DNA of 14,070 nt. It comes from a bacterium HR41. Its GTDB lineage: Bacteria > Actinomycetota > Thermoleophilia > Solirubrobacterales > Thermoleophilaceae. How positions within the stretch are numbered: the stretch's first letter is position 1; every line of letters starts with the position of its first letter. Below are positions 1-13,494 of this stretch, in pieces. The notes below the pieces were generated by a model. It did not search any database. It had not been told where the DNA came from and saw nothing but the letters and a program-made list of their open reading frames with translations. A program made the translations under genes and the position numbers. The stretch is taken from contig BEIR01000011.1 in NCBI GenBank assembly GCA_002898855.1, positions 1 to 14,070 on the forward strand, read 5' to 3'.

Positions 1-1
1 G

Positions 2-250
2 GCGGCGATGATCTTCGGTCCGCTCACTGGCGCGGCTGTGAACCCTGCACGCGCTTTCGGGCCGGCGCTCGTGGCGCCGTCTTTCGGTGGCGTCGGCAAG
101 TTCCTGCTCGTGTACGTCGCCGCGCCGGTGCTCGCCGCGCTCGCCGCTTGCGGCGTGAGCGTCGCGCTGCGCAGCCTGCACGGCGGCGATCCCCGCGATG
201 CCGAGCCGACGGCGTTCGCTGGCGAGCCGGCGCGCACGAGCAAGCGCTAG
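2..250 (+). CDS. Aquaporin / glycerol facilitator (MIP family), C-terminal fragment
   Basis: Integral membrane channel for water or small neutral solutes such as glycerol. Only the last 82 or so residues are in the window; the reading frame is open at the left edge, so the true start lies outside and the in-frame ATG at position 8 is internal. The fragment carries the second NPA-type pore motif of the MIP family in the typical setting LTGAAVNPARAFGPAL. A hydrophobic helix follows (roughly residues 30-55 of the fragment, KFLLVYVAAPVLAALAACGVSVAL), matching the sixth transmembrane segment, and then a short polar tail. Seeing only this half, water cannot be told from glycerol selectivity. It is unrelated by sequence to the F420 genes downstream, and a hairpin separates it from fbiC. 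Confidence 0.85.
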   Translation, partial: AAMIFGPLTGAAVNPARAFGPALVAPSFGGVGKFLLVYVAAPVLAALAACGVSVALRSLHGGDPRDAEPTAFAGEPARTSKR

Positions 251-275
251 CCGAGCGCCGATAGCCGGCTACTGC

Positions 276-321
276 CGCGCAGCCGGAGTGGCCGATCGCT
301 GCTCGCCGGACCGGCTGCGCG
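276..321 (+). terminator. Hairpin after the aquaporin gene, possible terminator
   Basis: An 11-base-pair perfect stem is formed by 276-286 (CGCGCAGCCGG) and 311-321 (CCGGCTGCGCG), with a 24-base loop. It begins 26 bases after the aquaporin stop codon and ends before the fbiC promoter. There is no T-tract after it, so it is not a classical intrinsic terminator. GC-rich stems without a T-tract are common at gene ends in high-GC actinobacteria. Termination is inferred from position. Confidence 0.4.
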
Positions 322-381
322 CGAACCGCCGTTAGCCCGCTGCCGCCGGCGCGGCGCGCCTCGGTCCTTGCTGCACGGGCG

Positions 382-397
382 TAGACTGCCACCGGTG
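382..397 (+). promoter_or_regulatory. -10 box and leaderless start of fbiC
   Basis: TAGACT at 382-387 matches the actinobacterial -10 consensus TANNNT and lies exactly 7 bases before a GTG at 395, so transcription would start at or next to that GTG. No convincing -35 element or Shine-Dalgarno sequence is visible. This spacing is typical of leaderless mRNAs and is the reason for choosing 395 over the upstream in-frame TTG at 368, which would place the -10 box inside the gene. Confidence 0.5.
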
Positions 398-2623
398 CGG
401 CGAGTCACCTTCTCGCGCAACTACACGATCTCGCTGTCGCGGACCTGCCGCTGCTACTGCAAGTACTGCGCGTTCGCGACGCACAAGCCCCACCTGCACG
501 CGCCTGAAGCCGTCGAGCGGATGCTCGACGACGCCGTCCGGCGCGGCGCCAAGGAGCTGCTGGTGCTGACCGGCGAGGCGCCGGACGAGAACCGCGAGGT
601 GCGCGAGCGCTTGCGCTCGTGGGGGCACGACAGCTTCCTCGATTACGTCGAGTGGACGTGCCAGCGGGCGCTCGACCGCGGGCTTCTGCCGCACACGAAC
701 ATCGGTGTGCTGGAACGCGAAGAGCTCGCGCGCCTGCGCCGCGTGACCGCCTCGCAGGGGTTGATGCTCGAGTCGATCGTGCCCGACCTGGTGGTCCACC
801 AGGGGTCTCCCTCCAAGCACCCTGCGGTGCGCCAGCGCGTGCTCGAGCTGGCGGGCGAGCTGCGCATCCCCTTCACCACCGGCATCCTCGTCGGCATCGG
901 CGAAAGCCGCCACGATCGCATCGCTGCGCTCGAGACGATCGCCGCCGTCCACCGCCGCTACGGGCACATCCAGGAGGTGATCCTCCAGAACTTCGTGCCC
1001 CATCCCCGCTACTACGGCCGCGAGCCAGCGCTGATCGCCGACCGAGCGCAGCGCGAGGGAACGCGCGGCGGCCACGAGCAGCCGCTGCCGTCGTGGGCGA
1101 GCGAGGTGACGCTCGAGGAGATGCGCGAGCTGGTCCGCGTCTGTCGCGAGCTGATGCCGGACGTGGGCATCCAGATCCCGCCGAACCTGGCCGACTGGTG
1201 GCTTGAGCTCGTCGAGTGCGGGGCGACCGATCTCGGGGGTCTGTCGGCGAACGGCGACCACATCTCCCCAGAGCACCCGTTCCCTTCGCCGCTGGAGCTG
1301 CGCAGGCGGCTCGCGGCGCGTGGTTACGCGCTCGGCGAGCGGTTGTGCGTGTACCCGCGCTACATGAACGAAGAGTGGCTCGACCGCGGCGTGCTCGACG
1401 TCATCCGCATCCGCTACTGGACGTTCTTGCCGCGCACCGAGCGGACAGCGCGCGTCGAGCGACGACGTGTGCCGCGGCCTGATCTCGTGGCGCGCGCCGT
1501 CGCGCGCGGTCGCGAGGGCGAGGAGCTCACCGCCGACGAGCTCGCGGCACTGGTCGCCGAGCGCCGCCCCGAGGCGATCGAAGAGATCCGCCAAGCAGCC
1601 GACGAGCTGCGCGCCGAGCTCGTGGGCGACACGGTGACGTTCGTCGTCAACCGCAACATCAACGTCAGCAACGTCTGCACGGTCGGCTGCGCGTTCTGCG
1701 GTTTCGGTCAGTCGCGGCGCTCCCCCGACGCCTACGAGCTCGACGAGAGCGAGTTCGTGCGCCGCGTCGAGGAGGCGGTCGCCTACGGCGCCACCGAGAT
1801 CTGCATGCAGTCCGGCATCCACCCCGACTGGACGCTCGACGACTACCTGTACTGGCTGCGGGTCGCCAAACGGGTGGCGCCCCACATCCACCTGCACGCC
1901 TACTCGCCGATGGAAGTGCAGTGGATGTGCGAGCGCTCGGGGCTCGGTCCGCGCGGCGTCTTCGAGCGGCTGCGCGAAGCCGGGCTCGGCTCGGTCCCGG
2001 GCACGGCGGCCGAGATCCTCGACGACGGTGTGCGCGAGCGAATATCTCCCAACAAGCTGCCCGTCGCGCGCTGGGTCGAGATCATCGAGGCCGCGCACGC
2101 GATCGGCCTGCGTTCGACGGCGACGGTGATGTTCGGCCACATCGAAACCCCCGAGCAGCTCGCCGAGCACATGCGCGTCGTGCGGCGCGTGCAGGAACGG
2201 ACCGGTGGCTTCACCGAGTTCGTGCCGCTCTCGTTCATTCCCTACCAGACGCTGCTCGGCCGCCGTTACGGCATCGAGGAGATCGCGCCCGAGGAGAACC
2301 TCAAGCACACCGCGGTGTTCCGCCTCGCGCTCGGCAAGACCGTTCGCAACCTGCAGGCGAGCTGGGTGAAAATGGGTCTCGAGCTCGCGACCGAGGCGCT
2401 TCGCTGGGGTGTGAACGATCTCGGCGGGACGCTGATGGAGGAGAACATCTCGCGCCTCGCCGGCTCGCGTCACGGCGTGCGCCTCGACCCCGCCGATCTT
2501 GTCGAGGCCGCGCACCGTGCCGGCCGGCCGGCTGCGGAGCGCACGACCCTGTGCACGATCCGGCGGCGGTGGCCGATCGGCGAGGTTCCGCGGCGGCCGG
2601 TGGCGCTGCCGGTGGCCGGTTAG
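395..2623 (+). CDS. fbiC: FbiC: 7,8-didemethyl-8-hydroxy-5-deazariboflavin (FO) synthase, CofG-CofH fusion
   Basis: Cytosolic two-domain radical SAM enzyme that makes FO, the chromophore of F420, from tyrosine and 5-amino-6-ribitylamino-uracil. With the GTG at 395 it is 742 residues, shorter than the roughly 850 of mycobacterial FbiC. The N-terminal CofG half has the CX3CX2C iron-sulfur motif at C18, C22 and C25, within CRCYCKYCAF, followed by the family stretch NIGVL...ASQGLMLES. The C-terminal CofH half has its own cluster motif at C428, C432 and C435 after NRNINVSNV, then EICMQSGIHPD and HLHAYSPMEV, all characteristic of CofH. A charged linker (about residues 345-415) joins the halves. An additional cysteine, C20, lies inside the first motif. 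An upstream TTG at 368 would add nine residues. The gene stands alone, convergent with the ABC permease gene; the other F420 genes are about 7 kb away on the opposite strand. Function is very secure. Confidence 0.96.
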   Translation: MRRVTFSRNYTISLSRTCRCYCKYCAFATHKPHLHAPEAVERMLDDAVRRGAKELLVLTGEAPDENREVRERLRSWGHDSFLDYVEWTCQRALDRGLLPHTNIGVLEREELARLRRVTASQGLMLESIVPDLVVHQGSPSKHPAVRQRVLELAGELRIPFTTGILVGIGESRHDRIAALETIAAVHRRYGHIQEVILQNFVPHPRYYGREPALIADRAQREGTRGGHEQPLPSWASEVTLEEMRELVRVCRELMPDVGIQIPPNLADWWLELVECGATDLGGLSANGDHISPEHPFPSPLELRRRLAARGYALGERLCVYPRYMNEEWLDRGVLDVIRIRYWTFLPRTERTARVERRRVPRPDLVARAVARGREGEELTADELAALVAERRPEAIEEIRQAADELRAELVGDTVTFVVNRNINVSNVCTVGCAFCGFGQSRRSPDAYELDESEFVRRVEEAVAYGATEICMQSGIHPDWTLDDYLYWLRVAKRVAPHIHLHAYSPMEVQWMCERSGLGPRGVFERLREAGLGSVPGTAAEILDDGVRERISPNKLPVARWVEIIEAAHAIGLRSTATVMFGHIETPEQLAEHMRVVRRVQERTGGFTEFVPLSFIPYQTLLGRRYGIEEIAPEENLKHTAVFRLALGKTVRNLQASWVKMGLELATEALRWGVNDLGGTLMEENISRLAGSRHGVRLDPADLVEAAHRAGRPAAERTTLCTIRRRWPIGEVPRRPVALPVAG

Positions 2624-2692
2624 GTGCTGCGCTCGCCGCGCTCGACACGCAGCGCGTGGCTCGGTCGCCGCGCTAGACGCGCGGCTCGTCTT

Positions 2693-5038
2693 TCACTCGC
2701 TGCGCAAGGTCGCAGCCGGTGCTAGACGCGCCGCGCGCCGCGCCGGCGGCAACGCTGCTGCTGTCGCGAGCAGAAGAGCGACAGGCAGCAGAGCGGCGAG
2801 CGCCCATGGCGGCGCCCAGGCCACAACGTCCGGGCCGTCGTGCGGGTTGAGGACGATGACCAGGGTTCGGAACACCCACATGCCGAGCGGTACCCCTGCG
2901 GCCGTAGCGAGCACAGCGAGCAACGCCGCTCCCGCCGTGACCACCCCGGCCAGCTCGCGCGGGGTGAGCCCGAGCGCTTTGTAGAGCGCGAGGTTGCGCG
3001 CCCGCTCCTTGACCGCCAAAAGGAAGGCGCACAGAACGTTGATAACGGCGATTCCCAACAGCACCGCCTCGAGCGCGTAGACCACGCGGCGGGCCTGGGC
3101 GCGCTCGCTACGCCAGATGTCGCGCGACACCGCGACGGCGAAGGCTCCTCGAACGCGTTCACGCAGCGCGCGTGCAAAGGCGCGGTCCCGCCCGGGATCG
3201 TCGAGGCGTAACAGCAACTGGCGCGCCGGCGGCGGAGCGAGTCCGGCACGTCGCAGCGTCGCGGCCGATACCCAGAGGGTCAGCGCCCGGTCGAAAGGTT
3301 CGACGTAGCGCCCGACGACACGCACGACGAACTGGCGGCCGCCCACCTCTACACGCACCCGGTCACCGGTCGCGACGCCGAGCTCGCCCAGCAGCCGGCG
3401 GCCGATCAGCGCCTCCCCAGAACGGCGCAGCGGCCGACCGAGGGTGACCGTCGGCTGCATCGATCGCCAGGCGCCACGTGCGACACGCACCACGATCCGC
3501 CGGCCGGCGACGCGTGCGCCGACGCGTGCGATCGCGGCGCGCGACCTTACGTGCGCACCACTGTCGCGCTCGGCGCTCGCGAGCAGGTTCGGCTGGATGG
3601 CAGCCGGCTCTACCTGCACATCCCACGGGCGGCCGTCGCGCGCCGGGTCGGCGAGCAGGCGTGCGTACGTGTGCTCCATCGACGCCAGCGCCACCAGCAT
3701 CGCTGCAGCGAACGCCAGAGTGGCCGCGCACAGCCAGGCGCGCGGGCGGCGCGCGAAGGTCTCGGCCACCCCCAGCGCGATCGGTGCGGGGACTTGCAGA
3801 CGCAGTGCCAAACCCGCCAGCCGCGCGCGGTGTGCGGCCACCATCTGGGGTCGCCCGAGGGCCAGCGCGCTACCGACGCGAGCCGCCACCGCCCGTCCGA
3901 TGGCGGGCAGCGTCGCCAGTGCGACCGCGGCCAGCGCGATCGCCGCTGCGACAGCTGCGGTGCCACCACCGGCCCACGGCACGAACGGCGCGCCGACAAG
4001 GTCGACGAGCGGGGCGAGCAGCGGCCGGGACGCAGCGAGACCGACGATCGTCCCGATAGCCACCGCCGGCACGGCTAACGCCAAGTTTTCGAGCAGATAG
4101 CGCGAACCGACCTGGATCGGACCGAGGCCGAGCGCTTTCAGCAAGCCGACTTCGTAGGTGCGCGACAGCACGCGACTGCTCGTCGCAGTCGCGAAAACGA
4201 AACAGCTCGCGGCGAGACCCAGAAGAGCGAACGTTTGCAGGACGACCGTCTCGAGGCGCGTCAACTGCGCGTAGTCGGCGGCGACTGCTTTCGTCGTCGC
4301 GATCCGTGCGCGCGGGGCGAGGGCGCGCAAGCGGGCGCGGAAGCGTGCCAACGCGCTGCTGCTCCGGTCGGCGAGGCGGATCGCGCGCACGAGCTCGCTG
4401 CGACCGGAAACTGTGGCGACCAGCTGTGTTGGCGCCCACATCAGCGTTTCGCGCGCGCCATCGAACGGCGGCAGCGAGACAGTGCCGGCGATCCCCACCA
4501 CCCGCACGCCCCGCCCGCCGACCGTTAGCCGGTCGCCGACGGCCAGCCCGAACGCGCGCGCGAACGTGCGCTCGGCCACCACCTCGCTGCGCGACCACAG
4601 CCGCGGTGGCCGACCGCGTTCGACGAGCGGTCGGTCGACCGTTGCGGCATCGTCCCACTCGCGTAGGGCGGCCGCTATCCGCAGACCACTACCCCGGAGC
4701 AGTATGTGCCGCTGGCGCAGGCCACGCCCGGCCGCTGCGATGCCGGGAAGACGGGCTGCGGCGCGAACGTCGCGTGCGGTTCCGGTCACCACGAGGGTCG
4801 GGTCACCAGCGGCGGCGCGGGCGCGCCGCAGCGGGTCGCGACCGACATCGAAGAGGGCGATCGCCATCGTGAGCACCGCCGCAGCCGAGGCCACGACGAT
4901 CGCGGTGAGCAGAAACTGCACGGGTGCGTCGCGGAGTGCGGCGCGCAGCAGCAGTAGTTGGGCGCCGAACACGGCGCGGGCACGCGCCGCACACCCGATC
5001 CCCACACCGTGCTGCCGATGGCGCGGCCGCGCACTCAC
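2693..5038 (-). CDS. ABC transporter permease, FtsX/MacB (LolC/E-like) family
   Basis: Membrane subunit of a type VII ABC system (781 residues). These systems usually export lipids, peptides or drugs, or transmit mechanical force to periplasmic/extracellular partners, rather than moving substrate through a classical channel. Two FtsX-type units are visible. Transmembrane segment 1 (about 43-63) is followed by a 200-residue extracytoplasmic domain, then segments near 267-287, 316-336 and 360-380. A segment near 434-454 leads to a second extracytoplasmic domain, followed by segments near 652-675, 698-725 and 742-762. The coupling-helix signatures EVGLLKALGL (about 296-305) and RNLALYKALGLTPREL (about 680-695) are characteristic of the family. 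Its GTG start overlaps the ATPase stop codon by 4 bases (GTGA), so translation is probably coupled and the two proteins form one transporter. The substrate cannot be read from sequence. Confidence 0.9.
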   Translation of the reverse strand: MSARPRHRQHGVGIGCAARARAVFGAQLLLLRAALRDAPVQFLLTAIVVASAAAVLTMAIALFDVGRDPLRRARAAAGDPTLVVTGTARDVRAAARLPGIAAAGRGLRQRHILLRGSGLRIAAALREWDDAATVDRPLVERGRPPRLWSRSEVVAERTFARAFGLAVGDRLTVGGRGVRVVGIAGTVSLPPFDGARETLMWAPTQLVATVSGRSELVRAIRLADRSSSALARFRARLRALAPRARIATTKAVAADYAQLTRLETVVLQTFALLGLAASCFVFATATSSRVLSRTYEVGLLKALGLGPIQVGSRYLLENLALAVPAVAIGTIVGLAASRPLLAPLVDLVGAPFVPWAGGGTAAVAAAIALAAVALATLPAIGRAVAARVGSALALGRPQMVAAHRARLAGLALRLQVPAPIALGVAETFARRPRAWLCAATLAFAAAMLVALASMEHTYARLLADPARDGRPWDVQVEPAAIQPNLLASAERDSGAHVRSRAAIARVGARVAGRRIVVRVARGAWRSMQPTVTLGRPLRRSGEALIGRRLLGELGVATGDRVRVEVGGRQFVVRVVGRYVEPFDRALTLWVSAATLRRAGLAPPPARQLLLRLDDPGRDRAFARALRERVRGAFAVAVSRDIWRSERAQARRVVYALEAVLLGIAVINVLCAFLLAVKERARNLALYKALGLTPRELAGVVTAGAALLAVLATAAGVPLGMWVFRTLVIVLNPHDGPDVVAWAPPWALAALLPVALLLATAAALPPARRAARLAPAATLRSE

Positions 5039-5772
5039 CGCGGATCGACGCGCCAGAGGCGCTCGAGCGTCGATGACGCGCTCCCCGGGACGAGGACCGC
5101 CTCTTCGACGATGCGGCCGTCGCGCATCTGCAGCACGCGATCAGCGGCGCTCGCGACGCGCTGGTCGTGCGTAGCGAGAACGATCGTCTGGCCGCGCGCG
5201 TGCACCTCGCGCAAAAGCCCGAGAACGACGCTCGTAGCGGCCGAGTCGAGACTGCCGGTCGGCTCGTCGGCCAACAGAAGAAGCGGTTCGGCCGCAAGCG
5301 CGCGGGCTATCGCTACCCGTTGCTGCTCGCCGCCCGAGAGGCGCGACGGCAGCTCGGCGGCGCGATTCTCGACACCGAGGCGCGCCAGCAGGGCGCGCGC
5401 CCGCTGGCGCGCCACGCGCGGCCGCGTGCCGGCGACGATCGCCGGCAGCTCCACGTTCTCCTGCACTGTGAGGGTGTCGACAAGGTTGAAGAACTGGAAC
5501 ACGAAACCGATCGTGCGCCGGCGCCGCAAGGCCCAGGCGCGCTCCGACAGCCGATCGACGCGCTCGCCGCCGATCTCGATCGTGCCGCGGTCGGGGCGTT
5601 CGAAACCAGCGATCAAGTGCAGGAGCGTCGATTTTCCGCAGCCGCTGGGACCGGTCAAGGCGACGAACTCGCCCGGGGCCAGAGCAAGATCGACACCGCG
5701 CACCGCTTCGACCGCGGCTGCACCTTCGCCGAAGCGCTTGTGCAGATCTCTAGCTAGGAGCGTGAACCGCAA
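5035..5772 (-). CDS. ABC transporter ATP-binding protein (MacB/LolD-like)
   Basis: Cytoplasmic ATPase (245 residues) that powers the FtsX-type permease encoded directly downstream. All nucleotide-binding motifs are present: Walker A GPSGCGKST (41-49), Q-loop Q93, signature LSGGEQQR (145-152), Walker B LLLLADE (164-170) with catalytic E170, D-loop GSLD, and switch H202 in THD. The sequence around the Q-loop (FVFQFFNLVDTLTVQENVELP) is typical of the LolD/MacB subgroup. The TTG start at 5772 is chosen because a GAGGAG Shine-Dalgarno sequence lies 4 bases upstream and no other start codon precedes the conserved N-terminus. This makes it overlap the 3' end of the padR gene by 23 bases, which points to one padR-ATPase-permease transcription unit. 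Confidence 0.93.
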   Translation of the reverse strand: MRFTLLARDLHKRFGEGAAAVEAVRGVDLALAPGEFVALTGPSGCGKSTLLHLIAGFERPDRGTIEIGGERVDRLSERAWALRRRRTIGFVFQFFNLVDTLTVQENVELPAIVAGTRPRVARQRARALLARLGVENRAAELPSRLSGGEQQRVAIARALAAEPLLLLADEPTGSLDSAATSVVLGLLREVHARGQTIVLATHDQRVASAADRVLQMRDGRIVEEAVLVPGSASSTLERLWRVDPR

Positions 5773-6271
5773 GGCGCTCCTCGCAGCGCTCGAGCCACTC
5801 GAGGTCAGCCTCGAGGTGCAGCTGCAATGCCTCGGCGGCGAGGGCCACGGCGGGATCGCTAGCTCGGTCGCTGCGCAGCAGCTCCTCGGCGTCGCGCAAT
5901 GCCTGCAGGCACTCGCGCCGCTGCCGGCCGATCAACGTGCCGACGTCGCCGATGCCGGACAGGCCGACAGCCACCAGTTTGAGGAAAAACTCATTGCGGA
6001 AGTAGGTGGGGGGGCTGGGCGACTGCGACCACGTCCGCAGCTCTTCCTCGCCGCTCGGCGTGAGCTCGTAAACGCGCTTGTTCGGCCGCTCCGACTGCTC
6101 GACATCGGCGCCGACGATCAGGCCGTCGCGCTCGAGGCGCTGCAGCGTCGCGTACACCTGGCCGGGGTTCACCGACGACATCAGGCCGTGCAAACGCTCC
6201 TCCACCTCCTGGTGCAGCTCGTAGCCGTGCGCCGGCCTGCGCGCAAGGAGGGACATCAAGACGTACTTCAT
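5750..6271 (-). CDS. PadR-family transcriptional regulator
   Basis: DNA-binding repressor-type protein of 173 residues. The N-terminal winged helix-turn-helix (about 1-80) shows the PadR pattern: MKYVLMSLLARRPAHGYEL, then NPGQVYATLQRLERDGLI, then NKRVYELTPSGEEEL. The C-terminal half (about 90-170) is helical and charged, as expected for the PadR dimerisation coiled coil (PadR-C/Vir-like). PadR proteins often control an adjacent ABC efflux system and respond to a small lipophilic ligand; here it directly precedes and overlaps the ATPase gene. The ATG at 6271 is chosen because it begins the conserved domain, although the frame stays open far upstream. No Shine-Dalgarno sequence precedes it; CATTCT 6 bases upstream is a weak -10 candidate, so the mRNA may be leaderless. 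Self-regulation is likely for the family but not demonstrated. No classical PadR operator (ATGT-N8-ACAT) was seen. Confidence 0.9.
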   Translation of the reverse strand: MKYVLMSLLARRPAHGYELHQEVEERLHGLMSSVNPGQVYATLQRLERDGLIVGADVEQSERPNKRVYELTPSGEEELRTWSQSPSPPTYFRNEFFLKLVAVGLSGIGDVGTLIGRQRRECLQALRDAEELLRSDRASDPAVALAAEALQLHLEADLEWLERCEERLAVHAPS

Positions 6272-6288
6272 GCGACCAGAATGACACA

Positions 6289-6321
6289 CCCGCGGGCGCG
6301 CTTCCATGGCGCGCCCGCGGG
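6289..6321 (-). terminator. Perfect 13-bp hairpin between cupredoxin and padR
   Basis: Arms 6289-6301 (CCCGCGGGCGCGC) and 6309-6321 (GCGCGCCCGCGGG) are perfect inverted repeats around a 7-base loop (TTCCATG). The right arm lies 3 bases beyond the cupredoxin stop codon and the left arm 17 bases before the padR start. On the minus strand the stem is followed by the moderately T-rich TGTGTCATTCT. The best reading is a factor-independent terminator or attenuating/mRNA-end hairpin closing the oxidase operon. Because it also overlaps the expected padR promoter region, an operator role is an alternative. Confidence 0.65.
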
Positions 6322-6324
6322 CTG

Positions 6325-6777
6325 CTAGCGGACCACTATGCGCATCGTCATCTCGGCGTGGAGCGTGCAGACGATGCGGTAGGTACCGCGCCGTGTAAGC
6401 CGCCGCTTGTAGGTGTAGTCGCTGGCGGCGAGCGCCGAGCGGAACTTGCGCACGCCGCGGGGGCCGCGCGCGAGATAGACGTCGTGGACGTCGCCGGGGA
6501 TCCGCGGCCAGCGCCAGACGACCGTCGTCCCGCTGCGAATCCGCAGCTGCGACGGCTTGTAGAAGTAGTCGCCGACTTTCACGGTGACCTGGCGCTGGCG
6601 AGCGGCGTCCGCTCGCTCGCCGCCACTGTTCGCCGCGACCGCCAGTGCCGCGCAACCGGCAGCCAGGAGGGCAGTGGCCGGCAGGCGTTGCAGCGCTGCG
6701 CCACCTGCGAGCCTCGCGCCGCGCCGGGTGTCCCCGGCGCGGCGGTCGGCCGTTCGTTCTCGCCTGTTCGCGTCCAT
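6325..6777 (-). CDS. Secreted cupredoxin (plastocyanin/azurin-like blue copper protein)
   Basis: Probable small extracytoplasmic electron carrier or copper protein (150 residues). The N-terminus is arginine-rich and then has a hydrophobic stretch (about 34-49, ATALLAAGCAALAVAA), consistent with an export signal or membrane anchor; C42 could be a lipidation site but the lipobox is imperfect (alanine at -3). The rest is a single cupredoxin domain with a complete type-1 copper ligand set: H98 (in GDVHDVYL), C137, H140 and M145 in CTLHAEMTM. The CX2HX4M spacing is that of plastocyanins. The ATG has a good Shine-Dalgarno sequence (GGAGG, 5 bases away). It is the third gene after the multicopper oxidase and the beta-helix protein, 21 bases after the latter, and a strong hairpin follows it. 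A role as electron donor/acceptor or copper partner of the oxidase is inferred from context only. Confidence 0.86.
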   Translation of the reverse strand: MDANRRERTADRRAGDTRRGARLAGGAALQRLPATALLAAGCAALAVAANSGGERADAARQRQVTVKVGDYFYKPSQLRIRSGTTVVWRWPRIPGDVHDVYLARGPRGVRKFRSALAASDYTYKRRLTRRGTYRIVCTLHAEMTMRIVVR

Positions 6778-6798
6778 GCCGTCCTCCTGCCCCCGAAG

Positions 6799-8142
6799 TC
6801 AGCGTCGATAGCGCTCGACCGGTTTCACGCCCTTGCGCGGCGCATGCGGATGGCGCAGCCAGAACTGCTCGAACGTCTCCGGCTTCTTCGGGTTCTGGGC
6901 CGCGATCCACTGTGCCGCCTCCCCAAGCACGGTCGGATCGATGGCGTTCTCGCTCGGCCCGGGGCAGGGTGCGTAGGTAGCTTGCGAACCGAGGTAGGGC
7001 ACCGGGCTCGTCAGGACGTTGCCCTGGAAACAGTTGCCCGTTCCGGAGCCGTCGTAGGCGAGGTCGCGGCCGTTGAGGTCCTTGCCGTCGAGCCCGAAGC
7101 GGTTGTTGCGTACGACGTTATTACGCAACGTCGCCGCTTCCCGCAGCTTCGGGTCGCTATCGCCGGCTAGCTCGAACTGCTGGACCATGCCGAAGCCGAC
7201 CAGCCAGTTCCCGAAGATGCGGTTGTTCTCGACGATCGTGCCCTGGCTTCCGAAGAGCAGGATGCCGATACCGATCGGGTAGGCCGACAGTCCTGCCGGC
7301 CCGCTCGTCGGGATCTTGAAGGGCGCTCCGCGGTAGTAGTTGAAGTTGTTCCAGAAGACGTCGTTGTCGGCGATGACGTTCTCTTCCGGAGGCGGATACT
7401 TCTCGGTCCGCAACGCGTTCGGGACGATGCCAACTCCGTTGTTGAAGAACTGGCTGCGGCGGATCGTCACGTAACGCATGTTCGTCCCCGAGAAGCCGAG
7501 AACGTTCAGATACGACTTCACGTTGGTGACGAACGAACGCTTCTTGCGGCCTTTTTGGGGCGGTGTCTGGCCGATGTAGAAGCCCGAGTCGTTGTTGTAG
7601 TACGCCTCGGAGTTGGACATCGTGCCGCCCTTGGAGTTGAAGGCGTAGATTCCGTAAACGCCGCAGCGTTCGGCGACGAGACGGTCGAGCGTGTAGCCGT
7701 CGGCGTTGACTACGAAGAAGCAGTTGGCTTTGTAGTTGCGCGCATAAAAGCCGCGGATCGTCACGCCGTCAGCGGCGTTGACGAAGAACGCGTTCTGGCC
7801 GCCGGCGCCGCGCACCCCCTTGCCGTCGAGACGCACACGGCGCGGGTTCTTGGGATCACCAACGATCCGCAGGCCGTCGTAGCGGCGACCGAGAATCTGC
7901 ACCCCCTCGCGGTAGGTGCCGGGACGCACGACGATCAGATCACGCCCCGTCGCCCGCTTGATGGCAGCACGGATCGTCTTGTAGCGGCAGCCGCGCTTGC
8001 AGACGACGAGCTTGCGACCCTTTTTCGACGCTGCCGGGACCTTGCCCGGATTGGCCGGGGGCGGGTATTCGGCAGCGAGCGCGGGGGGCGCGGCGAACGC
8101 CACAGCGCTCAGCGCCACCGCCAGGCTTGGCGTTTTGATCAT
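6799..8142 (-). CDS. Secreted right-handed parallel beta-helix protein (NosD/pectate-lyase-like fold)
   Basis: Exported protein of 447 residues whose biochemical role is unknown. Residues 1-24 form a Sec signal peptide (hydrophobic core LAVALSAVAFAA, likely cleavage after ALAA). Residues 45-81 match the N-terminal cap of parallel beta-helix proteins (YKTIRAAIKRA...DLIVVRPGTYREGV). About 250 residues of beta-helix coils follow, rich in N, G, Y and F and in patterns such as GVTIRGF, NSEAYYNNDSGFYI, IVENNRIFGNW and TLRNNVVRNNRFGL. C48 and C52 in CKRGC may form a disulfide. The fold is shared by polysaccharide lyases, surface glycan-binding proteins and NosD of the nitrous oxide reductase copper-maturation system; no lyase catalytic set could be identified. 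The ATG has a strong Shine-Dalgarno sequence (GGAGG, 9 bases away) and starts 22 bases after the oxidase stop, so the two genes are surely co-transcribed. Base composition is locally less GC-rich, mostly because of Asn/Tyr/Phe/Lys-rich repeats. Confidence 0.87.
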   Translation of the reverse strand: MIKTPSLAVALSAVAFAAPPALAAEYPPPANPGKVPAASKKGRKLVVCKRGCRYKTIRAAIKRATGRDLIVVRPGTYREGVQILGRRYDGLRIVGDPKNPRRVRLDGKGVRGAGGQNAFFVNAADGVTIRGFYARNYKANCFFVVNADGYTLDRLVAERCGVYGIYAFNSKGGTMSNSEAYYNNDSGFYIGQTPPQKGRKKRSFVTNVKSYLNVLGFSGTNMRYVTIRRSQFFNNGVGIVPNALRTEKYPPPEENVIADNDVFWNNFNYYRGAPFKIPTSGPAGLSAYPIGIGILLFGSQGTIVENNRIFGNWLVGFGMVQQFELAGDSDPKLREAATLRNNVVRNNRFGLDGKDLNGRDLAYDGSGTGNCFQGNVLTSPVPYLGSQATYAPCPGPSENAIDPTVLGEAAQWIAAQNPKKPETFEQFWLRHPHAPRKGVKPVERYRR

Positions 8143-8164
8143 CGTTTCCTTCCTCCCTCGTCGG

Positions 8165-9244
8165 TCATCTGGGATCGACCAAGTACCAGCCCGCCATGCC
8201 GGCGTCCTGGTGGCTGAAGACGTGGCAGTGGTAGAGCCAACGGCCGGGGTTGTCCTCGGTGAACGCGGCGGTGATCGTTTCGTTGGGCCCGACGGTCGGA
8301 CAGTCGACGAGCGCGCCCGCGCTGTCGCGCCAGCGGTGGCCGTGGATGTGGAAGGTGTGAAAGTTGGAGTCCATTCCGATCACGTGGATCGCGACACGCT
8401 CTCCCACGCGTGCGCGCAAGGTCGGTGTGTTACCGGCGAAAGCGCGACCGTTGATGCAGTGCAGCACGGTGTCGGCGCCCGTGATCTGGGGCGGGAAGTT
8501 GTGCAGGAAAAGCGCGTACTCGCGGTCGGGTCGGGCGGCGCCGCGTTCGCGTACGACGATCGCGCCGAACAGACCGCGGAAGGTGTTGAGGGTGTGGTTC
8601 GGCCCGTGGTCGTGGTAGGGCCAGACGCCCACCGAGTCGGGTGTCGCCTCCCAGACGTAGGTGAACTCCTCGCCGGGAGCGACGAAGCCACCGGCACGCG
8701 TGAACTCGCCCAGGTAGGCGCCGTCGTACTCGGGGTTGTAGCGCACCCCGTGCGGGTGCACCGTCAGAGCTTGGCGGAGCTGCTCGGCGCCGTTGCGGAA
8801 GTGCACGACAATGACGTCGCCGACCTCTGCTTCGAGCGTCGGCCCGGGGATGCGCGGCGGCCCGAGCGGGCGCGCGAAACCGGCCGACCACGCTTGGTAG
8901 GCGAGCGCGCGGAAGGTCACACGCGGGACGCGGCGGGCGTGCCACTCGTCGTAGCCGCGCGGTGTCACCTGCCAGCGGACCGGTCGCGCGACGAGCCAGT
9001 ACTCGCGCCGTCGGCCGCCGTCGGCCGGTGCAGGCGTCGCGAAGCTCAAGCTGTCTACCCGGTCGCGGCGCGCCGAAGCGGGACGGCGGAGCGACGCCGC
9101 GGCGGCATCGACCCGCTGCACGTCGCGCGCCGTGCGCACCGTGAAGTTGCGCTCGCCGAGGGCGCAGACGAAGAACGCGCCGCCCGTGGCCGCCAGAAAG
9201 TCGCGCCGCCCGAGGCGGGCGGAGAAGCGATCCCGCCCTCCCAT
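8165..9244 (-). CDS. Tat-exported multicopper oxidase, small two-domain (laccase-like) type
   Basis: Extracytoplasmic copper enzyme (359 residues) that oxidises a substrate (phenols, metal ions or a protein partner) and reduces oxygen to water. A twin-arginine signal is at the N-terminus (GRRDFLAATG, R13-R14) with a hydrophobic run to about 29, so the protein is probably folded and copper-loaded before export. All four copper-binding motifs are present: HPHG (H163, H165), HDH (H211, H213), HTFHIHGH (H296, H299, H301) and HCHVFSHQDAGM (H339, C340, H341, H345, M350). M350 is the expected axial type-1 ligand. The length and arrangement suit two-domain, trimer-forming small laccases rather than three-domain enzymes. 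A nitrite reductase-type cupredoxin enzyme is the alternative, but the HCH motif argues for a multicopper oxidase. It heads a copper-protein operon under a promoter containing a palindrome. The ATG at 9244 lacks a Shine-Dalgarno sequence, consistent with a near-leaderless mRNA. Confidence 0.93.
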   Translation of the reverse strand: MGGRDRFSARLGRRDFLAATGGAFFVCALGERNFTVRTARDVQRVDAAAASLRRPASARRDRVDSLSFATPAPADGGRRREYWLVARPVRWQVTPRGYDEWHARRVPRVTFRALAYQAWSAGFARPLGPPRIPGPTLEAEVGDVIVVHFRNGAEQLRQALTVHPHGVRYNPEYDGAYLGEFTRAGGFVAPGEEFTYVWEATPDSVGVWPYHDHGPNHTLNTFRGLFGAIVVRERGAARPDREYALFLHNFPPQITGADTVLHCINGRAFAGNTPTLRARVGERVAIHVIGMDSNFHTFHIHGHRWRDSAGALVDCPTVGPNETITAAFTEDNPGRWLYHCHVFSHQDAGMAGWYLVDPR

Positions 9245-9254
9245 CTGACGCCAA

Positions 9255-9271
9255 TAGATACTCGGTATCTA
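9255..9271. promoter_or_regulatory. Perfect palindromic operator candidate over the oxidase promoter
   Basis: TAGATAC-TCG-GTATCTA is a perfect 7-base inverted repeat with a 3-base centre. It is AT-rich against the very GC-rich surroundings and covers the -10 box and the adjacent spacer of the oxidase promoter, the classical place for a repressor site. The cognate regulator is not evident: no regulator gene is immediately adjacent, and the nearby PadR is only one candidate. Confidence 0.6.
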
Positions 9272-9283
9272 GGCTGAGGTCAA
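9255..9283 (-). promoter_or_regulatory. Promoter of the multicopper oxidase operon
   Basis: Read on the minus strand: -35 TTGACC (9283-9278, five of six consensus bases), a 17-base spacer (9277-9261) and -10 TATCTA (9260-9255). The start codon begins only 10 bases after the -10 box, so the 5' untranslated leader would be about 3-4 bases. This is the best two-element promoter in the window. Confidence 0.65.
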
Positions 9284-9372
9284 GGGTCGGCGCTCGGCAT
9301 TTCGTCGATCACTGGTCCGGAGCCGGGGGCGGATAGGTGCCCGGAGACACCGTGGTCGACCGACGCAGCACC

Positions 9373-10125
9373 CTATCGGAACAGATCGTGGGCTCGCTCG
9401 CGCAACAGCGCCGCCGCACCTGGCCCGTCGTCGCGCTGGACGAAGCGGCCGAGCCCGTGCAGGAGCACCGCGGCTCGGCCGTCGGCCTTGCCGCGCACCA
9501 GCTCGGCGGCAGCAGCTACTGCATCGGCGATCGCTATCGTCGTCGCTCTCAGCTCGCGTCCCGAGCGGTCGCTCGCTCCCCGCAGGTCGAGCAGCGGGGT
9601 GAGCCCCGCGCAGCCGAGCGCCACGTCGACCGTGCCCACGCGGAACGGGCGACCGAAGCTGTCGGTGACGACGATCGCGGGTGCGACGCCGCGCACGCGC
9701 GCGATTCCGCGCCGCAGTTCGCGCGCCGAGCGGTCGGGGTCGCACGGCAACAGAACCACGGTGCCGGGTTCCGTGTTCGACTGATCCACCCCGGCGTTGG
9801 CGCACACGAAGCCGTGGTGCGTTTCGCAGATCAGAACGCCCGGACCGACCCGTACGAGCGCGCGTGACTCGTCGAGGACCGCCTGGACGAGACGCGGGTC
9901 CTTGCCGAGCTTCCTCGCCAGAGCGCGAGCACGCGCGGAGGGCGTGATCGTCGCCAGCGGCCGGATGCGACCCTCGGCTTTCGAGACCACCTTGTGGGCG
10001 ACACAGAGCACCTCCTCTCCCGTGACTCCCTTCGGCAGGCTCTCGGCGAGCAGCGTCGCGAGATCGCACCCCGGTGAAATCTCGGGGAGCGGCGGCAGCG
10101 GCTCGACAATCAGACGGTCGCTCAC
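9373..10125 (-). CDS. cofE: CofE: coenzyme F420-0:L-glutamate ligase, single-domain
   Basis: Cytosolic GTP-dependent ligase that adds gamma-linked glutamates to F420-0 (or dehydro-F420-0). It is 250 residues, the length of archaeal CofE, and contains the family signatures VLCVAHKVVSKAEGR (39-53), ICETHHGFVCANAGVDQSN (99-117) and DSFGRPFRVGTVDVALGCAG (155-174), which carry the metal- and GTP-binding residues. Mycobacterial FbiB has the same domain fused to a C-terminal FMN-dependent nitroreductase-like domain that reduces dehydro-F420. That domain is absent here and no separate copy is in the window. The GTG start at 10125 overlaps the cofC stop by 4 bases (GTGA), supporting this start and coupled translation. 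The frame remains open far upstream, antisense-free start choices there lack family similarity. Confidence 0.95.
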   Translation of the reverse strand: MSDRLIVEPLPPLPEISPGCDLATLLAESLPKGVTGEEVLCVAHKVVSKAEGRIRPLATITPSARARALARKLGKDPRLVQAVLDESRALVRVGPGVLICETHHGFVCANAGVDQSNTEPGTVVLLPCDPDRSARELRRGIARVRGVAPAIVVTDSFGRPFRVGTVDVALGCAGLTPLLDLRGASDRSGRELRATTIAIADAVAAAAELVRGKADGRAAVLLHGLGRFVQRDDGPGAAALLRERAHDLFR

Positions 10126-10997
10126 TTCGCGGTCGTAGCCGCTGGCGAGCCGAGCCTGGCACCCGCCGGTGGGCGCAGGTCGGCGCTCGCGGCGGCCGCG
10201 GCGACCGCGTCGGCCAGCTCGCGCTCGGCCGCGGTGCGGCCGCTGCGGCCGGCGAGCGACGACGCCGCGGCGGCTAGGTCGTCGACGGTGTCGATGTCGA
10301 GCGCCAGCCGGCTGTCGCGCAAGAACGCCCAGCTGCGGCCGCTGGCGATCGCCAGAGCACGGTGGCGTTCGCAGCTGCCGTCGCCGAACGAAGGGCGGAT
10401 CGCGTCCGCCGGCGACAGGGCCAGCGCGTTCGTGCCGGTTCCGTGGCGGTCGGGGACGATCACGATCGCGCGGCTGCGCGCAGCGTGCACGAGCGTCGCG
10501 AGCGCGTCCGCCGTGACGAGCGGTATATCGGCGGGCAAGAGGACGACGTGGCTGGCGCCGAGCTCGTCGCAAGCGATCGACGCGCCTAGCTCGGCGGCGC
10601 CCGACTGACCGGGGTTGCTTGCGTCCTCCACAGTCCGGTCGGCACGCGCTCGAGCGACCGCCGCACCGGAAGCACAGCCGACGACAGCGACGGTGGCGTC
10701 GATCTCGCGACAGCTCGCCACCGCCTCGAGAGTGTTCGCGAGCAGCGCTTCGGCAAGCCGGGCGCGCGCAGCGGCAGGGACGACAGGGGAGAGACGCTGT
10801 TTGGCGGACGCGAACGCTTTCGCTGTCACCACGCAGACAACCCGCTGCGACCTCTGCGCGCAGTTGGCGAGGGCGGTGTCGGGCGCGCGGCCGGTACTGC
10901 TTGCGCCTCCGCTGCTCCCGCTCCTACTGCGGCCGCTGCCGCCACCACCATCGCTGCCCCCGGCCCTGCCGCTCTGGTCCCGGTCGCGGCTCGTCAA
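10122..10997 (-). CDS. cofC: CofC/FbiD: phospholactate (or phosphoenolpyruvate) guanylyltransferase
   Basis: Cytosolic nucleotidyltransferase that uses GTP to activate 2-phospholactate or phosphoenolpyruvate for CofD. The core runs from about residue 53 (VVCVVTAKAFASAKQRLS) and shows the family motifs LLPADIPLV (154-161), VPDRHGTGTNALALSP (181-196) and PSFGDGSCERH (202-212). At 291 residues it is clearly longer than the roughly 210 typical of the family. The first 50 residues are a Gly/Ser/Arg-rich low-complexity leader and the C-terminus also has an alanine-rich tail. The TTG start at 10997 forms a 4-base overlap with the cofD stop (TTGA), which favours it, but an internal start just before V53 (in-frame GTGs in the VVCVV stretch) would give a normal-size protein. 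Its own stop overlaps cofE by GTGA. Confidence 0.9.
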   Translation of the reverse strand: MTSRDRDQSGRAGGSDGGGGSGRSRSGSSGGASSTGRAPDTALANCAQRSQRVVCVVTAKAFASAKQRLSPVVPAAARARLAEALLANTLEAVASCREIDATVAVVGCASGAAVARARADRTVEDASNPGQSGAAELGASIACDELGASHVVLLPADIPLVTADALATLVHAARSRAIVIVPDRHGTGTNALALSPADAIRPSFGDGSCERHRALAIASGRSWAFLRDSRLALDIDTVDDLAAAASSLAGRSGRTAAERELADAVAAAAASADLRPPAGARLGSPAATTAK

Positions 10998-11947
10998 GGT
11001 GCCTTCGCCCCCTCGCTTCTCGTGGTCGTCGGCGGAATCCTCGCACCGAGTTCGCGTCCGAGCGACAACACCGCTTGCGCGACACGGGCACGGCCGGCGC
11101 GATCGTCCATGCGCGTGTCGGTCACCCGATGTGGCAACCCGTCCACGGGCTCGTCAGCGACGATGCCGTCCACGAGACCGGCGTAGGCGTTCGCGATCCC
11201 ACGCGCACTCGATTCGATTCCGGCGAAAGCGCAAAAAGCGTCGGTCGGTCCCTTGACTGCGCGCCCGCCGACGAAGGGGCTGACCGCGATAGCCGGCACC
11301 GTGCGCGCGGCAAGTGCCACCCGCACGCCACGCACCGCGAGTATCGGCCCGATCGAGATGACTGGGTTCGATGGTCCGATCACGATCAACCGAGCGCTGT
11401 GAAGCGCCGCCTCGACCTCGCGCGTCGGTGCCGCGTCGTCGGCGGCCTCGACCTCGACCGCCTCGATCGGCCCGCGTGCTCGCTCGCGAACCATGAACTC
11501 CTGGAAGTCGAACCAGCTGCCGGCCGCGCGTACGCGTGTGCGCAGTTCGGTGTCGGTGGCCGGCAGCACCCGCGTCCGCACGCCGACCGCGTCGGCGACC
11601 GCCTGTTGGGCGACCGTTTTGCGCCGTCCCGCGCGGAGCAGCTCGGTGCGGATCAGGCACAGCGCCAGATCGCGGTCGCCGAGACGGAACCACGGGTCCC
11701 GCCCGTAGGCGGCAAGCGCCTCCATAACGTGCCAGCTATCGCCGCGGATGCCGTACCCGCGCGGATCGATGAGGTCGGCGAGCCAGTAGGTGACAAGGTC
11801 GGGATCTGGCGACACGTGCACGCCGTAAACCCAAACGTCGTCGGCGACGTTGGCGATCACGGCGAGGTCGGCAGGGTCGGCCAGCGCTTCGGCGAGGGCG
11901 CGCGCCAGCTTCGCGCCGCCGGTGCCTCCCGACAGAAGCGCGATCAT
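10994..11947 (-). CDS. cofD: CofD/FbiA: 2-phospho-L-lactate (or enolpyruvyl) transferase
   Basis: Cytosolic transferase that moves the phospho-three-carbon unit from the CofC product onto FO, giving F420-0 or dehydro-F420-0. The protein is 317 residues, normal for the family. Characteristic stretches are the N-terminal GGTGGAK (7-13), IANVADDVWVYGVHVSPDPD (31-50) with the conserved aspartates, DPRGYGIRGDSW (61-72), WFRLGDRDLALCLIRTELL (86-104) and IGPSNPVISIGPIL. The ATG at 11947 sits 15 bases after the npdG stop with only a weak purine-rich site (GGCGG) ahead. It is the second gene of the npdG-cofD-cofC-cofE unit. Whether the donor carries a lactyl or enolpyruvyl group cannot be decided from this sequence. 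Confidence 0.95.
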   Translation of the reverse strand: MIALLSGGTGGAKLARALAEALADPADLAVIANVADDVWVYGVHVSPDPDLVTYWLADLIDPRGYGIRGDSWHVMEALAAYGRDPWFRLGDRDLALCLIRTELLRAGRRKTVAQQAVADAVGVRTRVLPATDTELRTRVRAAGSWFDFQEFMVRERARGPIEAVEVEAADDAAPTREVEAALHSARLIVIGPSNPVISIGPILAVRGVRVALAARTVPAIAVSPFVGGRAVKGPTDAFCAFAGIESSARGIANAYAGLVDGIVADEPVDGLPHRVTDTRMDDRAGRARVAQAVLSLGRELGARIPPTTTRSEGAKAP

Positions 11948-11962
11948 CGCCGCCAGCTCGTG

Positions 11963-12655
11963 TCAATCCGCCCAGTGTCCGGCGGCGTCTTCGGGGAGTC
12001 CGGTGATGCGCACCCCGGCGTGGGTTCGGTAGCGGCGGTTGATCGAGATCAGCAGCGGCGTCAAGCCCTCGATCATCCGCGCCATCTCGAGCGGGCCGCA
12101 GTCGACCGGCCGCAGCCCGTCGATGCGCAGCACGAGCTCGGCGACACGCCGTCGGGCTGCGCGTCGGTCGCCGGCGATCAGAACGTCCTCGTCGAGCTGT
12201 TCGTCGAGCCGACGCAGGCGGTCGGCGGAGACGGTGTGAAAAGCGCTGACGACGTCGACGCCGTCGGGAACCATTTCGGCCGCTTGCTCGGCCGCCGACC
12301 CCTGGGGCACGCCGAGGAGCCGCGTCGCCTTGCCCGAGAACGCCGCCGCTAGCGGAACGGTGGCGTCGACCAGCACCTGCCCCGGCTGGAGCACAGGCTT
12401 GAGACGCGTGAGGTTCTCGGACTGGGCGCGGAACGGCACGCAGAGCAGGACCACGTCGCCGCGGGTCGCTGCCTCCTCGTTGACCGCCGCTTCCGCCGAC
12501 GCCTGGGGCAAGACCTCGCGCAGACGGGAGACGGCCTCGTTAGCGCGCCCGATGTCGCGCGACCCGACGACCACGGGCTCGCCCGCAGCGGCGAGCCGCA
12601 AAGCGAGACCGAACCCGAGCGCGCCCGTCCCGCCGATGATCGGTACCGTCGCCAC
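11963..12655 (-). CDS. npdG: NpdG/FNO: F420H2-NADP+ oxidoreductase
   Basis: Cytosolic enzyme that exchanges hydride between F420 and NADP(H), supplying F420H2 in aerobic actinobacteria. It is 230 residues, normal for the family, and consists of one Rossmann domain: IIGGTGALGFGLALRLAAAG (6-25), then VVVGSRD (28-34), where R33 fits the NADP 2'-phosphate pocket. VLVDATVPL (95-103), SAAEQAAEMVPDG and VVSAFHTVSA (134-143) are typical of archaeal and actinobacterial FNO. It heads the F420 operon. The GTG start at 12655 lacks a Shine-Dalgarno sequence and lies 9 bases after a TAGGCT -10 box, suggesting a leaderless mRNA. Placing the enzyme with cofD, cofC and cofE couples making the cofactor to reducing it. 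Confidence 0.93.
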   Translation of the reverse strand: MATVPIIGGTGALGFGLALRLAAAGEPVVVGSRDIGRANEAVSRLREVLPQASAEAAVNEEAATRGDVVLLCVPFRAQSENLTRLKPVLQPGQVLVDATVPLAAAFSGKATRLLGVPQGSAAEQAAEMVPDGVDVVSAFHTVSADRLRRLDEQLDEDVLIAGDRRAARRRVAELVLRIDGLRPVDCGPLEMARMIEGLTPLLISINRRYRTHAGVRITGLPEDAAGHWAD

Positions 12656-12732
12656 AGGCGCGCGAGCCTAGCGCAAGGGCGCAGGGCGAGCGGCTCGCGC
12701 GAGTCCGGCGCTGGTTTAGGTTGACGAGCGTG
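12656..12732. promoter_or_regulatory. Divergent promoter region between npdG and the SDR gene
   Basis: Minus strand: -10 box TAGGCT (12670-12665), 9 bases before the npdG GTG. Plus strand: -10 box TAGGTT (12717-12722), 7 bases before an in-frame GTG at 12730 and 10 before the ATG at 12733. Neither gene has a Shine-Dalgarno sequence, so both are probably leaderless. Between the boxes lie overlapping GC-rich symmetries: GCGAG-CGG-CTCGC (12686-12698) and the palindrome CTCGCGCGAG (12694-12703). They could bind a shared regulator but may equally reflect base composition. No good -35 elements are visible. Confidence 0.5.
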
Positions 12733-13494
12733 ATGCTCACGATGCGCGGAATCGAGGGAAGGGTGGCGGTCGTCACGGGCGGCGCAAGCGGCATCGGCGC
12801 GGCGACGTGCCGGCGTCTCGCTGAGGAGGGAGCGCGCGTCGCCGTCGTCGATATCGACATGGCCGGTGCCGAGCGCGTAGCCCACGAGACCGGCGGGCGC
12901 CCGTACCGGTGCGACGTGGCTGACGTCGACCAAGTGCGCGCCACGGTCGGCGCGGTCGAGCGCGAGCTCGGCGCCGTCGACCTGCTCGTAAACAATGCCG
13001 GTACCGACGAGTTCGGTTTCCTCGTCGAAACTCGCCCCGAGCAGTGGGACCGCGTTCTGGCGATCAATCTGCGCGGTGTCATCGCCTGTACGCACGCGGT
13101 CCTCGCCGGCATGCAGGAGCGCCGATTCGGGCGCATCGTGAACGTCGCTTCGGAGGCGGGGCGAGTCGGCTCGCGCGGCTCGAGCGTCTATTCGGCCGCC
13201 AAGGCAGGGGTGATCGGTTTCACCAAGGCCGTGGCACGGGAGGGAGCGCGCTACGGCGTCACGTGCAACGCGGTGGCGCTGGGCCCGATCGAGACGCCGC
13301 TCTTGATGGCGGCCCCCGAGCACCTCGGCGAACGGGGGCGCAAGTTGATCGAGACGATGGTCGGCTCGACTGCGCTGCGGCGGATCGGTCGACCGGAGGA
13401 GGTCGCGGGAGCGATCGTCTTCCTGCTGAGCGACGACGCGAGCTACATCACCGGCGAGACGCTCGGTGTGAGCGGCGGACTCGGCATGGTCTAG
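12733..13494 (+). CDS. Short-chain dehydrogenase/reductase (SDR), FabG/3-hydroxyacyl-type
   Basis: Cytosolic NAD(P)-dependent oxidoreductase of the classical SDR family, 253 residues from the ATG at 12733. Motifs: TGGASGIG (15-22) for cofactor binding, D40 at the end of the second strand (VAVVDID), which favours NAD over NADP, NNAG (87-90), N112, and the catalytic triad S140-Y153-K157 in VYSAAK. The C-terminal ITGETLGVSGGLG is standard for FabG-like enzymes. The substrate is unknown; the following HMG-CoA lyase gene suggests acyl-CoA or branched-chain carbon metabolism, but a link is unproven. Alternative starts are TTG 12721, GTG 12730 and ATG 12742. GTG 12730 fits the 7-base distance from the -10 box, and ATG 12742 fits the conserved core. 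The enzyme has no F420-binding fold. Confidence 0.9.
   Translation: MLTMRGIEGRVAVVTGGASGIGAATCRRLAEEGARVAVVDIDMAGAERVAHETGGRPYRCDVADVDQVRATVGAVERELGAVDLLVNNAGTDEFGFLVETRPEQWDRVLAINLRGVIACTHAVLAGMQERRFGRIVNVASEAGRVGSRGSSVYSAAKAGVIGFTKAVAREGARYGVTCNAVALGPIETPLLMAAPEHLGERGRKLIETMVGSTALRRIGRPEEVAGAIVFLLSDDASYITGETLGVSGGLGMV

Follow-up and report, generated by a model that had tools for sequence, protein, structure and literature searches.

What do a multicopper oxidase, a β-helix protein and a cupredoxin, encoded side by side and exported from the same cell, do together? The question is raised by a stretch of 14,070 nucleotides (the window) from contig BEIR01000011.1 of bacterium HR41, a member of the Thermoleophilaceae, in which three such genes are followed on the same strand by genes for a PadR-family regulator, an ATP-binding cassette (ABC) ATPase and a permease. 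The first-pass annotation had proposed a NosDFY-like copper maturation device for the whole block, and had regarded the oxidase, β-helix and cupredoxin genes as its stronger unit. We find that this trio is a conserved unit in the window's order of soil bacteria (Solirubrobacterales), and its products probably work jointly as a copper-based extracellular oxidising device. In the specific form favored here, which we give about an even chance of being right, the trio encodes one secreted, O2-dependent oxidase module of a laccase, a cupredoxin carrier and a β-helix scaffold. The three genes are:

8165-9244, minus strand: two-domain multicopper oxidase (SLAC-like, apparently a K2-type laccase) of 359 residues, with a Tat-type N-terminus and the type-1 (T1) copper motif in domain 2; from Pfam Cu-oxidase_3/_2, Protein Data Bank (PDB) matches and ligand alignment.
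6799-8142, minus strand: exported right-handed β-helix protein of 447 residues, the laccase partner; from Pfam Beta_helix, a weak NosD match and an AlphaFold2 model.
6325-6777, minus strand: cupredoxin (type-1 blue copper protein) of 150 residues; from Pfam Copper-bind and a PDB amicyanin match.

The trio spans positions 6325-9244 of the minus strand, with gaps of 22 bases between the oxidase and β-helix genes and 21 bases between the β-helix and cupredoxin genes; three consecutive exported proteins at these coordinates, separated by 21-22 bases, had been described before and were re-found. Homologues were searched in a set of 101 genomes, and the ortholog set comprises 43 β-helix loci outside the window, namely 42 further matches down to an E-value of 1.1e-43 and one fragment at a contig edge (G054:C72). 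A laccase gene lies beside the β-helix gene, on the same strand and within 4 kb, in 39 of the 43 loci, and at the four loci without it (L073, L079, L081 and L107) only 34-782 bases of contig remain on the 3' side. The cupredoxin is found at 40 of the 43 loci, the misses at L073 and L081 being contig ends. Seven further loci from named genomes gave the oxidase in 7/7 and the cupredoxin in 5/7, with both misses at contig ends. Conversely, a β-helix gene adjoins 39 of the 42 close laccases (E ≤ 1e-70, a number that counts the laccase of the window); the L105 laccase and, at L080, the first oxidase both sit at contig starts. Co-occurrence in other genomes, on which the first-pass annotation had hung its proposal, is what the loci of relatives display, and its view of the trio as the stronger unit agrees with these counts.

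The trio occurs in two gene orders, with the oxidase first in 17 loci and the β-helix first in 22. The beta-helix-first loci carry a further cupredoxin-type protein (CUP4), present in one or two copies 3' of the oxidase in 21 of 22 loci; the exception, L074, is where the locus ends. CUP4 has a His/Cys/His set followed by no Met 2-6 residues on in 27/27 sequences, and by none 2-11 residues on in 26/27. In the window cupredoxin, the complete H/C/H/M set noticed earlier was located at H98/C137/H140/M143, and the same ligands are present in 50 of the 54 cupredoxins of other trio loci, where three lack the Met and one is cut at a contig end. Moreover, the cupredoxin may be part of the β-helix chain itself: among the 120 matches listed, all nine long β-helix homologues (547-565 residues) bear a C-terminal cupredoxin, and locus L050 encodes such a β-helix-cupredoxin fusion. 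A second class of two-domain oxidases, nine in number, appeared in the oxidase search at E-values of 1e-69 to 1e-55; the six loci checked (L108-L113) have no β-helix gene nearby (0/6), and two of the six have a weak CUP4-like match. Some other arrangements are recorded here as they were seen. L040 (9983-15509) has two β-helix/cupredoxin pairs, then a single oxidase and CUP4. A conserved lipoprotein-like gene of ~340 residues lies near the trio in 14 beta-helix-first loci (L065, L068, L070, L071, L075-L083 and L099), of which the L065 member has no Pfam match. In addition, a conserved opposite-strand gene is present at eight loci, and its L078 member is a GMC-type oxidoreductase.

The oxidase matches the Pfam families PF07732 (79.2 bits) and PF07731 (68.5 bits) and the two-domain laccases of PDB entries 3t9w and 8aip, over about residues 105-357. 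All twelve copper-ligand residues (H163, H165, H211, H213, H299, H301, H339, H341, H296, C340, H345 and M350) are invariant in the 30 aligned sequences, the window's included, in line with the copper motifs reported at first. Eight of the histidines, in the pairs from H163 to H341, we take to be the trinuclear site, and H296/C340/H345/M350 presumably form the T1 site of domain 2. The N-terminus holds a Tat-type motif, RRDFLA, and the RR pair is present in 46 of 49 oxidase open reading frames (ORFs), the misses being one masked by unknown bases and two cut at contig ends. The protein appears to be a K2-type two-domain laccase. Two-domain laccases have mostly been studied as stand-alone enzymes. 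A multicopper oxidase accompanied by small copper proteins is also a common layout of copper resistance, in which the oxidase would oxidise Cu(I) in the manner of CueO while the cupredoxin and the β-helix protein sequester copper. We consider this very unlikely for the trio: the CopA model gives 59.2 bits against 478.95 and the CueO model 34 against 525, far below the cut-offs, and the ligand set is of the blue electron carrier type, not that of a metal store. A ceruloplasmin-type ferroxidase was considered for the profile matches to ceruloplasmin and factor V, and rejected; in the printed alignments, compared by eye, the iron-site residues are not kept.

The AlphaFold2 model of the β-helix protein is a confident β-helix (predicted local distance difference test score (pLDDT) 89.3, predicted template modelling score (pTM) 0.89), with a signal-like N-terminus by eye. 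Within the coil (residues 44-373), the family alignment has no His or Met column of at least 80%. In the tail that follows, W428 is invariant in 30/30 and H433 in 29/29 alignment rows reaching each, a possible docking or metal site judging from the alignment; a W-H motif occurs in the tail of 37 out of 48 complete β-helix ORFs, and is not universal. These features bear on two other roles for the protein. One is that of a NosD-like maturation factor or chaperone, which would fold the laccase and the cupredoxin or load them with metal without the help of an ABC partner; we regard this as unlikely. Folds of polysaccharide enzymes outrank NosD, no His or Met column of the coil reaches 80%, and the tail motif is not universal. 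Moreover, the cupredoxin is fused to either end of the β-helix (C-terminal here, N-terminal in the distant loci below), which is more in keeping with a permanent structural partner than with a chaperone acting catalytically. The other is that of an enzyme binding or modifying a polysaccharide, with the copper proteins oxidising the same envelope or plant polymer, which seems quite unlikely. The coil has no conserved histidine, which AlgE-type catalysis needs, and no carbohydrate-active family was matched when the window protein was compared with Pfam and NCBIfam. A profile of the β-helix against sequences of solved structures returned two short pectinesterase matches only, of no use for mapping an active site.

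Does the association reach beyond the window's order? Among 396 sampled genomes from across the phylum, seven have a close β-helix (E < 1e-130); a close oxidase (E < 1e-150) is present in these seven and also in G033, and all are of the window's order. More distant β-helix proteins gave 54 loci from 49 genomes outside the order, one genome being of the same class and the rest of the same phylum only. They were searched with profiles for the cupredoxin and for both oxidase kinds, an oxidase being counted if two-domain, on the same strand and within 2 kb. The cupredoxin is fused or adjacent at 32 of the 54 loci and the two-domain oxidase is present at 13, all 13 also with the cupredoxin; the profiles behind these counts included sequences from the tested loci themselves (25 for the cupredoxin and 11 for the oxidase). 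Profiles trained on the order alone find the cupredoxin at 21/54 and the oxidase at 14/54 loci; a 41-bit oxidase match at L159 falls below the stricter limit of the 13/54 count. The identical search of 19 control β-helix loci, similar in score but from the window's own order, gave neither a cupredoxin nor an oxidase at any of them. Twenty-three of the 32 cupredoxin loci are N-terminal fusions, whereas the fusions among the window's relatives are C-terminal. The motif G[FYW][SN]GTN occurs at 30 of the 32 partner loci, 9 of the 22 partnerless loci and 0 of the 19 controls.

Two kinds of partner oxidase occur at the distant loci: three have the T1-type motif in domain 2, like the oxidase of the window, and ten have it in domain 1. 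Curated models score far below their cut-offs for four domain-1 and two domain-2 partner oxidases (five domain-1 proteins were scanned with L187 included), and the leading model for the domain-1 kind is copper nitrite reductase, likewise below its cut-off. A wider reading, which we put forward as tentative and rather doubtful, is that secreted redox modules occur throughout the Actinomycetota, in which a β-helix scaffold with the G[FYW][SN]GTN motif would carry a blue-copper domain, pair interchangeably with either kind of two-domain oxidase and wire a polymeric or insoluble extracellular substrate to O2 through copper alone.

A physical module accounts most simply for the strict co-localisation, for fusions at either end of the β-helix and for the replacement of one oxidase kind by the other. 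In the proposed module, the Tat-exported laccase would accept electrons at the type-1 copper of domain 2 and reduce O2 to water at the trinuclear sites, the site chemistry being that of SLAC-type laccases. We infer that electrons run from the donor or substrate to the laccase, with the cupredoxin acting as a dedicated one-electron carrier. The β-helix scaffold would hold the cupredoxin, by a covalent link in the fusion proteins, and may dock the laccase, a substrate polymer (lignin or polysaccharide, for example), or both, so that oxidation takes place at the right position. Several points weigh against this module. Locus L062 has a β-helix gene truly without a cupredoxin, and in G033 the locus L104 (8854-10508) has a close oxidase, then a CUP4-type protein, truly without a β-helix, the single true exception found to the pairing of oxidase and β-helix. 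Of the distant loci, 22/54 have neither partner by the profile search above. The model of a natural fusion is of moderate quality (pLDDT 74.8, pTM 0.68), and does not fix the seat of the cupredoxin on the β-helix. Moreover, SLAC-type laccases are known to act alone on small phenols.

An independent line of work meets the trio at its laccase. According to the main text of a stable-isotope study (ISME J 2022, PMC9296663), K2-type two-domain laccases with Tat signals occur in metagenome-assembled genomes (MAGs) of Solirubrobacterales and Thermoleophilaceae enriched by 13C-lignin. Two K2-type laccases expressed in Escherichia coli and Rhodococcus were both insoluble there, and their activity was not assayable (PMC9296663, main text). 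Our genome scan found trio loci in 'Thermoleophilaceae HOG39' (L033) and 'Solirubrobacteraceae HOG64' (L036), which, from the isolate number, taxon and hog-fuel name, appear to be MAGs MB2.39 and MB2.64 of that study as its main text names them. The two genomes (G014 and G045) each have exactly one match to the oxidase query at E ≤ 1e-3, and this is the trio oxidase. The words helix, cupredoxin, plastocyanin and operon are absent from the main text of PMC9296663, and the partner genes are not described in it. The insolubility of the lone K2 laccases reported in that text fits a β-helix protein that docks the laccase or one that aids its folding. If the proposed module is right, the two partners encoded next door offer a simple, testable reason why K2 laccases were insoluble when made alone, as that main text reports. 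Bacterial oxidation of lignin and phenols would also gain an electron carrier and a scaffold not considered before, and a β-helix group now mostly annotated as hypothetical or NosD-like would gain a function. We found no published description of the trio in a search that left most subscription literature outside, and its novelty is to that extent unproven.

What, then, of the genes beyond the cupredoxin? The remaining features of the block are:

6289-6322, minus strand: G+C-rich hairpin 3' of the cupredoxin gene, with no clear T run; folding energy -36.6 kcal/mol, z -2.81.
5750-6271, minus strand: PadR-family regulator, candidate binder of the operator-like repeat; Pfam PadR.
5035-5772, minus strand: ABC ATPase of the LolD/MacB/FtsE type; NCBIfam matches, all below cut-off.
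2693-5038, minus strand: FtsX/MacB-type permease; Pfam FtsX and MacB_PCD.
9255-9271, no strand assigned: operator-like inverted repeat TAGATAC-CGA-GTATCTA (TAGATACnnnGTATCTA), 11-27 bases upstream of the oxidase start.

The cupredoxin stop codon and the PadR start are 53 bases apart, and the hairpin between them, noted at first and found again (-36.6 kcal/mol, z -2.8), is the probable end of the trio transcript. All six genes lie on one strand both in the window and in a genome of the same genus (G001, locus L044), and the assignment of the permease to the MacB/FtsX type was borne out by its Pfam matches. The neighbouring genes of loci L031-L103 were scanned for the PadR, ATPase, permease and Cof/NpdG families. 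Within these loci, L044 is the only trio neighbourhood with a match to the PadR or the permease query. Matches of the ATPase type, which belong to a huge family, occur in L061 (on the contig of L042) at 2.9 kb from the oxidase, and at a greater distance in L056. A permease homologue (E ≤ 1e-40) exists in only three of the 101 genomes, the window's, G001 and G073, and that of G073 is on a different contig from its trio. Because of this neighbourhood test and the permease search, the ABC exporter falls outside the conserved unit and was ruled out as a member of the system; the ATPase and the permease look like local neighbours of the trio, not parts of the device. Whether the ABC pair travels with the trio, as the first-pass annotation had asked, has a divided answer: the trio recurs, and of the loci scanned only the window and L044 have the pair directly beside it.

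The genes for coenzyme F420 synthesis were seen on both flanks of the block, CofC/D and NpdG on one side and a fused CofGH on the other (window 1-13494 and L044/G001), and the other trio loci of the scan gave no Cof or NpdG match. The inverted repeat at 9255-9271 has one match in the window, which is exact, where 0.03 are expected with up to three mismatches. The same repeat lies upstream of the oxidase in G001 and at none of the 16 other oxidase-first loci; it occurs in 2 of 31 genomes, the listed sites being window 9255-9271, L137 and L139 1501-1517. A second copy in the source genome (G000) lies near ORFs that, judged by eye, resemble L-aspartate oxidase and flavin reductase. In the window's genus alone, PadR may be a regulator of the trio, and its binding to the inverted repeat is a guess.

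The NosDFY-like device, in which the β-helix protein, the ATPase and the permease together would mature secreted copper proteins, is largely refuted, and we hold it to be extremely improbable. In its favor, all six genes share a strand, both in the window and in the genome of the same genus. Against it stand the strong hairpin between the trio and the PadR-ABC block, the restriction of the permease and PadR matches to L044 among the trio neighbourhoods, and the three permease homologues in 101 genomes, one of them on a contig apart from the trio. Neither NosD nor NosZ is over its cut-off in any of these genomes. The window β-helix scores 30.4 with PF05048, above the cut-off of 23.6, but has no match to the NosD model TIGR04247 at E ≤ 1e-3, and this latter model gives weak matches in 40 of the 101 genomes and none over cut-off there (0/101) or in 14 control genomes (0/14). 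A NosZ-type client did not appear either: the models TIGR04244 and TIGR04246 have no match over the curated cut-offs in the 101 genomes, an absence defined by those cut-offs, under which the control genomes are also negative for either model, and the source genome (1.61 Mb in 285 contigs) is 72% complete. Of the original interpretation, the trio as the stronger unit stands, and a β-helix protein that matures copper proteins with the ATPase and permease is not supported.

Comparison with known systems places the conserved trio among, and apart from, several families. The window oxidase family shares with the K2 and SLAC laccases (PDB 3cg8 and 3t9w) two cupredoxin domains, the T1 motif in domain 2 and a Tat-type signal. 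It shares with the K2 laccases the Solirubrobacterales and Thermoleophilaceae hosts given in the main text of PMC9296663, where the K2-type clade is described as lacking the 15-residue flap of K1 SLACs. However, compared to SLAC it has an extra N-terminal stretch outside the SLAC-aligned core, which aligns with ceruloplasmin and factor V. This stretch, EYWI-A-----W---P---D at about residues 80-100, aligns with the start of the domain pairs of both proteins. To judge from the alignment, the window family may be a near bacterial relative of the ceruloplasmin/factor V/VIII line.

The β-helix protein shares the parallel β-helix type with the A-module of the mannuronan C5-epimerase AlgE4 (PDB 2pyh), at 17% identity. 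AlgE-type catalysis requires a catalytic histidine in the coil; the window protein, aligned over residues 43-393, has no coil His column of at least 80%, and its invariant H433 lies outside the aligned part. Compared to NosD of the NosDFY complex (PDB 7o0y), it is without a conserved ABC partner. The TIGR03805 proteins, whose model gives the window protein 52.7 bits against a cut-off of 141.5, have a related β-helix domain; in the example of Ruegeria pomeroyi (SPO_RS20610), the neighbours are heme proteins instead of copper ones. Among plasmid-borne distant β-helix matches, the annotated neighbours of 4 out of 10 were viewed; three are without redox neighbours and one, that of Ruegeria, has heme redox neighbours. 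On this megaplasmid (L200, 1055-5281), a c-type cytochrome, a cytochrome c peroxidase and a TPR gene precede the TIGR03805 β-helix gene on one strand, and this block may be a heme-based equivalent of the copper module.

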